From the NCBI GenBank assembly GCA_964036195.1, contig OZ038455.1, positions 3,985,855 through 4,049,854 of the forward strand: a stretch of 64,000 nucleotides of DNA. Reading direction: 5' to 3'. Numbering within the stretch: position 1 is the stretch's first letter; every line of letters starts with the position of its first letter. Below the pieces are notes generated by a model. It was given only the letters and a program-made list of their open reading frames with translations, was not told where the DNA came from and did no database searches. Source of the DNA: Sphaerolaimus hirsutus. Lineage: Eukaryota > Nematoda > Chromadorea > Monhysterida > Sphaerolaimidae. The position numbers and the translations under genes were made by a program. This document shows, in pieces, positions 17,147 through 59,441 of this stretch.

Positions 17147-17197
17147 CTGCGAATGTAGACACTTTGCATGAAATTTGATATTTTACAGGGAGGGGCT

Positions 17198-48146: not shown

Positions 48147-48336
48147 TCAATCACCCTTCACTTTCCCACTCCCATCATCCAATCTCCACGCGTAAAAAGT
48201 TGCCCCTAATCCTACAGCAAGCATGAAAATGTGCGGCGCGAAGTACACCGAGCTCCAGTAGTTCTTGGTGCTCGTGTAGGACAGCAGAAGGAAACCACAG
48301 GCCATGTATTCCAGGCAGCGAGTGCGCACCCACCAC
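48147..48336 (-). CDS. MBOAT7: MBOAT7 exon H (last coding exon)
   Basis: Acceptor CCCTCAG, 190 bases: one base completing a Leu codon, then W-W-V-R-T-R-C-L-E-Y-M-A-C-G-F, a membrane segment (H-I-F-M-L-A-V-G-L-G-A-T-F-Y-A-W) and a short charged tail G-K-V-K-G-D before the stop at 48149-48147. Aligns with the last two membrane helices of MBOAT7. Confidence 0.9.
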
Positions 48337-51300
48337 CTGAGGGGGGTACAGATGGGGGTTGAGGGGGTGACAGCTAACGCGTTCTACCTGGGGATGGTCG
48401 GCGTTTTTTCAACCGGTTTTTAAAACAATGTTGTTCTTTAAAAAATGCAAGCAAAAACCATTTCAAGACACGACCACATTATGCTTTGATAAACATTTGA
48501 TAAAAAACTTGGTTTGTTTTTTAACGGTGTGTTTCCATCACTAGTGTAACGGACCCGTTGTGAATGTTTGTACATACCGTATATCCTTGAATAAGTCCCC
48601 TGGGGAGTTATTTTTTCGTTAGAACTTTTTGAGTGGGAGTTAATCGAGGGGGCGGAGTTATTCGAGGGGGGGGGGAGTGATTTTTTCGTCAGAAAATGCA
48701 TAATCAATATATTGTATAAATAGGGGGTAATCGGTTGCATAAACCTGTAGGTCAGTATAGAAATTCATTTATTCATGCAAAAAATGAATGCTGATGAAAA
48801 CAAGCTGCAATAAATGCGTCCTTTTTAAGAAAACGTATGTAAAAACGTTTTTTGTATAAGGATATTTTAGTCACCCATATTAAGAGGGGGAGTTATTCGA
48901 GGAGGGAGTTAATTTTTCCTCAGTGTGCTAACAGGGGGGAGTTATTCGAGGTGGGGGACTTAATCGAGGATATACGGTATTTATGGTAACCGGCCCATAA
49001 AGACAAGCTATTCCACAGAGAAACGTTCTTTTGTCTGATCTGCTTTCAATGGGTTTCAATTTCACAATTTTCACTAATTTCTAAATATTTGCGTAATTTC
49101 CTCGTGTGAGCTTTTTATCCAGGGGTCACTCCCAGACCTTGCAAGATGTAAAAAGTCATGAATCATAACATGACAAAATTAGACATTTTACACAACTTCT
49201 GACACTTCATTTGCAAAAAAAATCGCATTTTACACGTCCGAAAGTGGTACCAAACGTGCAATTCAATCCAAAACAACTCCCCCCCACCCCACCAACCAAA
49301 GCACCCTCTTCCACCCACTGACGGGTGTGCCCCCCCTCCCCCCCACCCCCCACAGAGCGAAAACCCTATCCTCGGTCCACGTGCACAGGGGGATCGTCAT
49401 GAAGGACAGATAGTAGCCGGGGTGCAGCCCGTGCCAGTAGGCCGAGCCCAGCATGGTCAGGGATAGTCTGCGGGGGGGGGGGGTTGTGGATTTGGACTAT
49501 TGTGGGGGGGTGGGGGGGGGGGTTAGATAATTAGATAGTGCCAGGGGTCTTCTAGATTTCGACCCTCAGGGGGGTTGCATAGATAGCAAATCGCTCCTCG
49601 GGATGGATAGATAGCTGAAAAATTTTCTGGGGGGGTTGGGAGGGGGGGGTTCGCGGGGGTTCAATATACATACATATAGGCATAGAAAGAAGAAAAGGGA
49701 GAAAAATCGCTAAAGGTAGGTGAAAAATGGGTATATAGCACATATACTACTAAAAATAGCTGAAAATAGGCAGTTAGACGCTAGACGCATGAACTAGTGA
49801 TTTTGGAAGTGAAAATCTATAAAAAGGTATGAAAAATAGCGATGGGTGATTAGAAAAGATTCCGAGTACGAGTGAATGAATATGAATATGAATATGTATA
49901 CTTACCCCTCCCAGCGAAAGTGGCAAAAAATAACAAAATAGCACAAAACAACAAAACAACTAGCCTGTACTTGGTGGGCGCCCTCTTGTACAGAAAAGTG
50001 GCCAGCCAATACTGCACGGATTTGTTCCAAGCGCGCATGCCGCTCCGCAAACCGAAGCTCAATTCGCTTTCGTATATGTCGATGTTGCGGATTGAGTCGA
50101 ATGAATAGCGCACGTTTTTGTTGCTGCGGATTTTTTTTGGGTGGGGGGGGTAAATTTAAGGGCACCTTTCAAAGTGCTGAGTGCTTGTTACAAGCCAAAA
50201 ACGAAATACCGCTCGAATTACCCCCCTCTCAAAATGAACACTGTGAATTAATAAGCCACTCGAAATACCCCTCCCCCTAAATCGAGTGTAAAGCTACGTA
50301 AATCCGTAAATGTAATCTGACGCAAACAAAACCCCGAACCCACCCAATCTCAACGGCACCCCCTTGATCACTCTTTCCCTTGCCACCCTCCCCAGTGGGG
50401 ACCCCCTCCGAATGGGGGGTGCTCTCTTTGACACCCAACCTGCAGCCGATACAGCAGCACTCTGAGAGCAACCAGGGGGCAGTCCCGCACCCTGTAAGTG
50501 TAATGTCAAGTGCTAAGTGTCATGTAAAGTGTCAATTGAAAGAAGATTTTATTACAAAACTTTTGTCAGCTTGCATGAGAATTGACAACTTTACATAACA
50601 CTTAACACTTGACATTACACTTTACAGGGTGCGGGAGCGCCACCAGGCGGTGTACACGCGCGTGCGGAATTGCGCGAACACCGGCATCATGTAGAGGAAA
50701 CGGTATAGGAAGCCGTGTTCCATGTAGAAATCACCGCCGTGCAGAGGCTGGGGGTTGATCGAGGTTCGAGGGGTAATGGAACAGAGATTTTCTTTGTGAT
50801 TAGGAATGGAAATACGTTTGTGAAACGACCATATTTAAAAAGAAATGTTTTCTTTATAAAGCGGTTTGTCAAAAGCTCTCAAATTTTCTGGCCATATTTA
50901 CTCATTCGTGATAGTGGACACGGTAACCTAAAATTGTTCATTTTTTCAAAAACTGTTTTCTTAAAAACAACTTTAGAAAAGTAAAACGCACAGCAATCGG
51001 GAACAGTTTTTGCATTAATAGCATGCCGAGAGCGAACAGGGGCGCGGCGCACAACCTGGGGATGAATTGAATTAGCCCGAAGCGCTTTTTTATCGGGCGA
51101 GCCAATTTTTTTTGTTAAAAATACTGTATTTGCTGGAAAATTCCCCTGTGGAATTATTTTTTCATCAGTCTTTTTAATAGGGTGGGACTATAAGGAGGAA
51201 TTATTATTTCGTCAATATTTTCAAACATCTGTAGTAGTTGAGTGAACTTACTACAAATTAACTTGTAGTTCACTCAATTACTACACATGTTTCTATCAAT

Positions 51301-56012: not shown

Positions 56013-56437
56013 GTTTTAGGGCGTAGTAAATTGAAATTTGCTAGACAGTTTCAGCGAAAAACACTGCAATGGATAGTTTCCCAAAAGCGCATTCTATGAC
56101 AACCATGCGAAGCTAAAATTGTGCTTTTTCTTCATTTTATTACGTGAATTGATTATACAGGGGCCAACTGTAATTAACAGAACAGAAAATACTTCAGTAT
56201 AACATCAAAACAGATGAACAATTTGAATCAGCTGAGACCAGTTCCAGACAATTTTAAAGACCCTGTAAAATGTCAAAGTCGTCTAAACGACCATATACCG
56301 TATTACCTCGAAATACCCCCATGGGGGTTTATTATTTCGCCAGCAAAATTTGAGGAGGGGGGGGGGGGTTAATTCGAGGGGGGGCTTATTCGGGGGGGGG
56401 GGGTATTTTTTCGTCAGAAATTGTTGTAGTATCGTAG

Positions 56438-57642: not shown

Positions 57643-57906
57643 ATTCGAGGTAATACGGTAAAATGTCAAAGTCGTCTAAAAAACTCTGTAAGGTGTCAAA
57701 CGTGATGTAAAAGACCATAAAAAGTCAATTGTCAGGCAGTGTCAAAATTCATGTAAAATGTCCTGTAAATGTCAAACGTGTACGTCAGGCATTTTATTTA
57801 CCGAATCTTTACATGATTTCAGACATTTTACAGGGTCTGTGACTGGCACCAGGTGCCAGTTTCTATTTCACATTATAAGATGTTTTTAAATCACATTTTA
57901 CAAAAA

Positions 57907-58661: not shown

Positions 58662-58884
58662 TACACAAAATATCAACATCATATCGAATACCGATAGAGT
58701 TTCAAGATGGAAGAATTTGAAATACCGAATTTCAACATAAAAATATCCGACCCCCTGATGAAATTGTTCAGAGAGATTAAAAACCTGAAATAAGTAACGT
58801 GGCGAAAAATTAAATAAAAAGTGCTGAATTTGAGTGCACAACTAGGCTAAAAATCATCAAACTATTGCCCTGGCGGCTGGTCGT

Positions 58885-59316
58885 AGTCCCAGACCCTGTA
58901 AAATTTCAAATTCCAGGTAAAATGTCATGAAAAATGCCAAATGTCCACTTTAAAAAAAACTTTGAAATTTTAGAGGGCGCATTTTACGTAACTTTTGACT
59001 AGTGATGGAAAAAGCACCAGAACTTTTCCGGACCGCATCGCCAAGCGCCATAGCGCTTTTTGCTTTGGCGCTAGCGCCAACGCCAGCGCCAGGCATTTTG
59101 TTCCTGGCGTCGCATAAAAATAGCGCCAAGCGCCATGGCGCTTTTCATGGCTGCTGCGCCAAGCTTCAATGGCGCCACAGCAAAATAGCGCCAAGCGCGA
59201 AAAGCGACATGGAGCATTTTGCTTTGGCGCTTGCGCCATGGCGCTTTTCCATCACTACTTTTGACACTTTGCATAACATTTGACATTTTATACGGAAATT
59301 TACAGAGTGCGGGATT
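58885..59316. mobile_element. AGTCCCAGACCCTGTAAA element, ~430 bp
   Basis: AGTCCCAGACCCTGTAAAAT at the left, TTTACAGAGTGCGGGATT at the right, the same TIR type as 50480-50642. Minus-strand flanks CCAGCGCC and CCAGCCGC are similar, suggesting an 8-bp duplication. The element at 59000-59257 is nested inside. Confidence 0.7.
59000..59257. mobile_element. hAT-like MITE, TAGTGATG/GGCGCC family (258 bp)
   Basis: TIRs TAGTGATGGAAAAAGC and GCGCTTTTCCATCACTA. Perfect duplication CTTTTGAC at 58992-58999 and 59258-59265. Confidence 0.95.
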
Positions 59317-59441
59317 GGCGCTGGAGACAATCAGTTAGGTACTTTCTATATATTCTCAACAAAAAGTAAATATATATCATCATAGCACCCAGTCAAAGTG
59401 GGGACCCCCGAAATAAAACGAACCGCTTTCAAGGGGCCACC

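Follow-up and report, generated by a model that had tools for sequence, protein, structure and literature searches.

A short element with terminal inverted repeats lies within the conserved coding sequence of an MBOAT7 gene in the window (the whole 64,000-nt stretch of DNA analysed, C7:3985855-4049854 of a searched genome of 348,482,957 bases in 762 contigs), which raises the question of whether it is removed from the transcript as an intron and, if so, at which splice sites. Judging from sequence comparisons, it is probably an introner, i.e., a non-autonomous MITE that makes a 3-bp CWG duplication and produces many introns with GT-TG ends, and the MBOAT7 copy would be a GT-TG intron whose exact removal restores the protein.

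The gene was located by tblastn with a human MBOAT7 query: three exons matched with E values of about 1e-6 or lower, along with four further stretches that are weaker but collinear; human residues 113-193 were not found by tblastn at the locus, and residues 1-93 gave only chance-level matches. The three strong exons contain no stop in their coding parts and keep the RAWN and SAYWHGLHPGYY stretches, which we take to have a catalytic role. All five of the other MBOAT7 acceptors that could be placed are AG. The original prediction had put the element between a Trp and a Leu codon and its exact boundary at non-canonical ends, and both statements hold: exact removal (GT...CTG, 50473-50643, 171 nt) joins ...VYTAW to LLSECC... 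(...GCCTG to GTTGCTC in the nucleotide sequence), the joined peptide matches human MBOAT7 without a gap over 38 residues (PDB 8erc, phmmer, E 1.2e-5), and the boundary that matches the protein is GT...TG. A Pfam scan of the joined MBOAT7 peptide gave no match.

The inverted repeats described in the original prediction are confirmed, the inner arms (50496-50530 and 50588-50622) being 94% complementary over 35 nt and the outer arms (50472-50497 and 50622-50647) 85% complementary. Folding of the gene-sense RNA from 50465 to 50652 gave one long hairpin of -106.2 kcal/mol (shuffle mean -43.6; z = -17.3; 0 of 200 shuffles as good), in which the stem pairs the inner GTAAAG with the inner TTACAG and the exon ends come to lie near the stem base. 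The duplication needs correction, as it spans 3 bp instead of 8 (CTG when read with the gene; CAG on the plus strand, at 50644-50646 and 50473-50475); the element measures 168 nt between the two duplication copies, and the intron 171 nt. The CCCC preceding the duplication is the element end, common to many aligned copies, and the longer duplication had been called because this end resembles the CCGC of the exon. An element with an 8-bp duplication, such as hAT, is not what we found, only CWG being duplicated, and hAT-type ends, compared by the terminal features known for that group, are not favoured, as the CAGGGTG motif lies inside the repeat and not at its end. The coordinates of the element and of the exons are collected in Table 1.

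Table 1. Features of the MBOAT7 locus and its element, in positions of the window.
Feature	Positions	Strand	Basis or remark
Predicted intron	50473..50643	-	GTGGCG...CCCCCTG, 171 nt, GT-TG ends; from coordinates and gapless protein match over the junction
MITE/introner between target duplications	50476..50643	-	168 nt; from family alignment and ends
Target duplication, 5' copy (CTG in gene sense)	50644..50646	-	closes the upstream exon; CWG duplication seen genome-wide
Target duplication, 3' copy (CTG in gene sense)	50473..50475	-	putative TG acceptor
Terminal inverted repeat arm, intron 5' end, two segments	50588..50647	.	
Terminal inverted repeat arm, intron 3' end, two segments	50472..50530	.	
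Inner donor-like GTAAAG	50620..50625	-	paired within the hairpin stem
Inner acceptor-like TTACAG	50492..50497	-	ends 19 nt before the TG boundary; may serve as first-step AG
MBOAT7 exon upstream of element	50644..50747	-	acceptor CCCCCAG
MBOAT7 exon downstream of element	50433..50472	-	conserved part only
MBOAT7 exon, conserved RAWN stretch	49970..50123	-	acceptor CCGCAG
MBOAT7 exon with SAYWHGLHPGYY	49362..49467	-	acceptor CCGCAG
MBOAT7 C-terminal exon, matched part	48204..48336	-	acceptor CCTCAG

The element is a member of a large MITE family whose copies are dispersed through the genome. The search with the window copy yielded 922 first-look candidates, of which 40 were scored (74 match rows), and in their best rows the 39 other copies among these 40 were 72-80% identical to the window copy; the family consensus yielded 4230 candidates (40 scored), with long matches of up to 90%. 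Exact 15-mer ends numbered 1706 + 1602 (reversed control 0), and all these counts exceed what chance would give. In gene sense, intact-end copies have the form CWG/GTGCCAG...GACTGCCCC CWG/ (slashes mark the boundaries), the typical ends of the aligned copies in one orientation are CWG/GTGCCAGTCCC...GGGACTGCCCC/CWG, and a sizeable share of the aligned copies have decayed ends. When the element is removed together with one duplication, a 3' copy CAG leaves a GT-AG intron and a 3' copy CTG a GT-TG intron; the acceptor is thus by position the second CWG copy, and this duplication-derived site would be the one used in splicing. Many similar dispersed copies lying as putative introns in coding sequence, as is typical of introners, were found here (849 copies of a strict pattern, and homology across junctions). 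One variant (L078, C1:1366958-1367125) begins with GGGGCAG at both ends and has no GT donor in either orientation. Fragments of related repeats are also present in the window at 56238-56277, 57706-57849, 58877-58945, 59245-59319 and 17158-17190.

Copies in coding sequence were sought in two samples. The first comprised 61 loci and is biased to high-scoring copies; the second followed the order of the C1 list, with 20 TG ends (16 usable; 20 of the first 21 listed places, C1:2291629 left out) and 20 AG ends (14 usable; listed places 2-21, with C1:5515192 placed last, the first place being the other end of L078). A 5' end could not be recognised in four of the 20 TG and six of the 20 AG copies, which did not enter the ORF work.

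A second case of GT-TG ends is a DDX47-like gene (L086, in C1:3432781-3433191), where exact removal would join ...ATTCCG to GTCGCA; the joined peptide matches Pfam DEAD (2.2e-12) and runs without a gap through the junction against PDB 3ber (E 1.5e-22); its element is 185 nt long, which is not a multiple of three. DDX47 is an essential gene. In a six-frame genome search, the joined DDX47 peptide matched its own locus at 95 and 100% and nothing elsewhere above 54% (17 rows), so no intact second copy was detected. A third GT-TG copy lies in an MFS/transporter-like ORF (L017; Pfam MFS_1 4.4e-9; PDB MCT1 E 0.00068, junction without gap), and a fourth in an NHL-like sequence (L096; Pfam 0.009, under the cut-off; PDB matches to NHL domains with a 2-residue gap beside the junction). 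In the DDX47-like and MFS-like copies the 5' duplication copy is CCG and not CTG. GT-AG copies were found in a STAG sequence (L124; Pfam 6.8e-10; gapless PDB match to SA-1), a PAP2 sequence (L013; Pfam 3.5e-12, spanning the junction, with insertions relative to the profile), an LRR sequence (L102; Pfam 1.7e-5, the match stopping just beyond the junction) and a C2H2 zinc-finger sequence (L036; Pfam match); 7tm_2 (L136, 0.0097) and Neurensin (L015, 0.014) remained under the Pfam cut-off. The STAG, PAP2, 7tm_2 and Neurensin copies have CTG as 5' copy and CAG as 3' copy. PDB searches gave no match for the peptides of L095 and L136 and only two matches near E 0.9 for L087. Among the usable C1 copies, 2 of the 16 with TG and 3 of the 14 with AG showed some level of homology; as the Pfam scan covered sense peptides of 7 and 6 of these copies and the AG flanks were shorter, the two rates count as no more than similar.

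Some copies appear to have been duplicated with their surroundings. The zinc-finger copy and its neighbour L042 (C16:17518728 and C16:17531065) lie in adjacent C2H2 zinc-finger sequences, both GT-AG and inserted at the same finger, and the insertion is probably older than the duplication of these sequences. Likewise, two AG copies (5' flanks L106 and L108) have nearly identical, coding-like 3' flanks, L107 and L109 (GNLSMYLLPPNE...); they likely come from a duplicated gene carrying one and the same insertion, and both were dropped from the ORF work.

As a control, joined peptides were compared between orientations: Pfam matches over the cut-off were obtained for 6 of 30 sense peptides vs 0 of 30 antisense peptides (one antisense peptide reached E 0.07, below the cut-off), a comparison that is supportive only, the sense set being hand-picked and the antisense set consisting generally of the longest peptide per intact-end copy. 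The peptide list held 92 sense and 74 antisense entries, of which 30 antisense were scanned; among the 30 sense peptides scanned, that of L090 was too short for the list. Flanks of 45 nt were open in 16 of 20 GT..CTG copies and 25 of 27 GT..CAG copies vs 18 of 37 with degenerate ends (Fisher p 0.026 and 0.0003), an excess in the intact-end copies that base composition may cause. Compared with shuffled flanks, GT-TG copies showed no significant continuity of the reading frame across the junction (7/10 at 90 nt, shuffled mean 7.4; 9/13 at 75 nt, shuffled mean 10.2) and GT-AG copies only a suggestive one (13/13 vs 9.9 at 75 nt, p = 0.019; 11/13 vs 8.8 at 90 nt, p = 0.13), the flanks being short and GC-rich, which gives the test low power; a further test against shuffled pairs was likewise not significant. 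The near-duplicate loci L020, L042 and L046 were excluded from the frame tests and from the analysis of ACAG and its offset.

If the intron were spliced at an ordinary AG, the pairs to be considered are GTGGCG to CTGCAG, a GC donor to the inner TTACAG, or the inner AG with a frameshift. The inner GTAAAG...TTACAG pair is out: as originally predicted, it breaks the frame, leaving 18 + 19 = 37 nt. The accompanying claim that no GT-AG splicing could remove the element is correct for exact removal but too broad otherwise, as in-frame, stop-free GT-AG pairs exist in MBOAT7, such as GTGGCG...CTGCAG (acceptor 33 nt downstream, 11 residues lost) and GTGTAC...CTCTCAGAG (9 residues lost); their products, however, lack at least 9 conserved residues that align gaplessly with human MBOAT7. 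In-frame GC-AG pairs would cost no residue and would lengthen MBOAT7 by 8 or 10 residues (GCTCCC or GCACCC to TTACAG) and DDX47 by 7 or 11, although the donors GCTCCC, GCACCC and GCCACT are far from GCAAGT, the usual GC donor. The MFS-like copy has an in-frame GT-AG pair that adds 3 residues (ATG/GTAGGA...TTTACAG). In DDX47, the 14 GT-AG pairs listed (of 16) all come at the cost of conserved residues, which are either replaced or lost. Human AG-to-TG mutants do use nearby AGs (PMC2374985), which speaks for an ordinary AG here as well. Under this account, the exact fit of the whole element in both MBOAT7 and DDX47 would have to be a coincidence, and we regard it as unlikely.

The duplications themselves bear on the fate of the TG ends. 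We counted the strict pattern C[A/T]GGTGCCA N150-180 GACTGCCCCC[A/T]GG genome-wide and obtained 849 copies, with 5'/3' pairs of CTG/CTG (328), CAG/CAG (335), CTG/CAG (134) and CAG/CTG (52), the reversed control being 0 for each pair type. Both duplication copies agree in 663 of the 849 (odds ratio 15.8, worked by hand). The mixed pairs should be about equally frequent under neutral decay, yet the 3' copy is CAG in 134 of the 462 copies with 5' CTG and CTG in 52 of the 387 with 5' CAG (134 vs 52, binomial p = 1.6e-9). This imbalance suggests an ongoing replacement of 3' TG ends by AG; its simplest cause would be selection favouring the 3' T-to-A change in copies within genes, assuming equal mutation rates at both ends, and the excess of 3' AG itself marks TG as the inferior acceptor. 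Such conversion would imply that TG copies first survive in genes. If TG were never spliced, coding copies could feed the CTG/CAG class only through 5' A to T changes, and an excess of 82 produced in this way would demand that coding CAG-born copies outnumber all others by about 1.6:1, which, on the same assumption, the 328 CTG/CTG copies do not permit.

These counts also weigh on the second option offered by the original prediction, an unspliced insertion that disrupts the MBOAT7 allele of the sequenced animal. The 94% complementarity of the inner arms over 35 nt agrees with such an insertion, as does the fact that no MBOAT7 paralogue or second haplotype that could serve as an empty site was seen among nine MBOAT-family matches. 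However, at 72-80% identity to the window copy the 39 other listed copies do not look like products of a recent burst, members of the family are also inserted in other conserved genes, including the only DDX47-like locus detected, and the CTG/CAG excess would need TG copies that persist in genes. A disrupted allele, which fits poorly with DDX47 and with the 134:52 ratio, is quite unlikely. Of the two options, the evidence favours an intron that derives from a transposon and has non-canonical ends: copies of the family lie within several conserved coding sequences, and at two of these sites, both with GT-TG ends, the protein match crosses the junction without a gap. Pseudogenes or errors of assembly at MBOAT7 and DDX47 are highly improbable, for although near-duplication of contigs occurs in the assembly at least once (C720 vs C14) and only the three strong MBOAT7 exons match on their own, those exons are stop-free with RAWN and SAYWHGLHPGYY kept, DDX47 is unique in the genome search and the family has thousands of candidate places (4230).

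A transposon-derived GT-TG intron could arise as follows. As the element end starts with GT, an insertion in gene sense could create an intron immediately, the donor GT being the first two bases of the element and the acceptor the second copy of the target duplication, which would give a normal AG where it is CAG and a TG where it is CTG. The hairpin of the whole element would draw the two exon ends close to each other, the intron would be defined in the first step by the ACAG that lies 19 nt before the boundary, and the TG would be joined in the second step, perhaps as an AG-TG tandem. All 10 TG copies picked have this ACAG at a distance of 19 nt on the upstream side (three of them, L039, L088 and L090, show little coding sign beyond short ORFs), the arrangement being carried by the element repeat, and splicing these 10 copies from their usual donor to the ACAG would put them out of frame. 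TG ends presumably work less well and would tend to give way to AG over time; both the splicing at TG and its efficiency are what we infer from these patterns. With a confidence only slightly better than even, we further propose that the transposon makes GT-TG introns in bulk, i.e., that about half of the genic insertions are born with TG, are spliced well enough by means of the AG-TG tandem and the hairpin for important genes to stay functional, and later become GT-AG by a single T-to-A change. If true, this would be a visible route from non-canonical to canonical introns, and the repeated creation of TG acceptors, with matched AG and TG copies in one genome, would offer a natural experiment in how acceptors are chosen, what a TG costs and how new introns settle into genes, with a bearing on why some tunicates tolerate unusual introns.

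A preference for CWG is a Harbinger trait. Like the MITEs of the PIF/Harbinger type (PMC2213677), the family combines a 3-bp duplication (both copies agreeing in 663/849) with terminal inverted repeats and short copies. Introners with terminal inverted repeats and target site duplications have been described as copies of non-autonomous DNA transposons that become introns (Gozashti et al. 2022, PMC9860276); they take one splice site from the element and the other from the duplication, as the family in MBOAT7 would, exact removal preserving the mRNA in most families. Section 7 of that paper mentions rare GC and GA 5' splice sites and no TG acceptors born from the duplication, and its main text contains neither the word tunicate nor ascidian, nor noncanonical in the unhyphenated spelling. 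In the open-licence literature, neither GT-TG introners nor introners in ascidians appeared in the titles or abstract openings among the matches listed.

In the tunicate Fritillaria borealis, only 5% of the introns are canonical, AG/AC (18%) and AG/AT (16%) are the commonest others, and U2AF is duplicated (PMC13326754). Unlike those introns, the MBOAT7 copy would keep a GT donor and have its acceptor at TG, and the five other placed MBOAT7 acceptors are AG. In the present assembly, U2AF1-like exons lie at C14:3032343-3037998, with a near-identical copy on a small contig (C720:101293-108657) that is probably the other haplotype of C14; a second, more divergent U2AF1-like locus (C16:15183258-15191469) may be ZRSR2 or a paralogue. 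In the mitochondrial COX1 of the assembly, reading AGR as Gly (the ascidian code) gives Gly at positions known to be Gly, and on this ground the analysis placed the animal among the tunicates.

TG 3' splice sites have been described in 36 human genes, always as alternative sites and only with an AG within 28 nt, and human AG-to-TG mutants showed no splicing at TG; the proposal made there is that an AG is needed in step I and that a TG can be selected in step II (Szafranski et al. 2007, PMC2374985). The copies described here resemble these tandems in having a GT donor, a putative TG acceptor and an AG within 28 nt, in this case 19 nt upstream in all ten picked copies. They would differ from the human cases in that a transposon family makes the TG acceptors repeatedly and that the TG is required for the correct frame.
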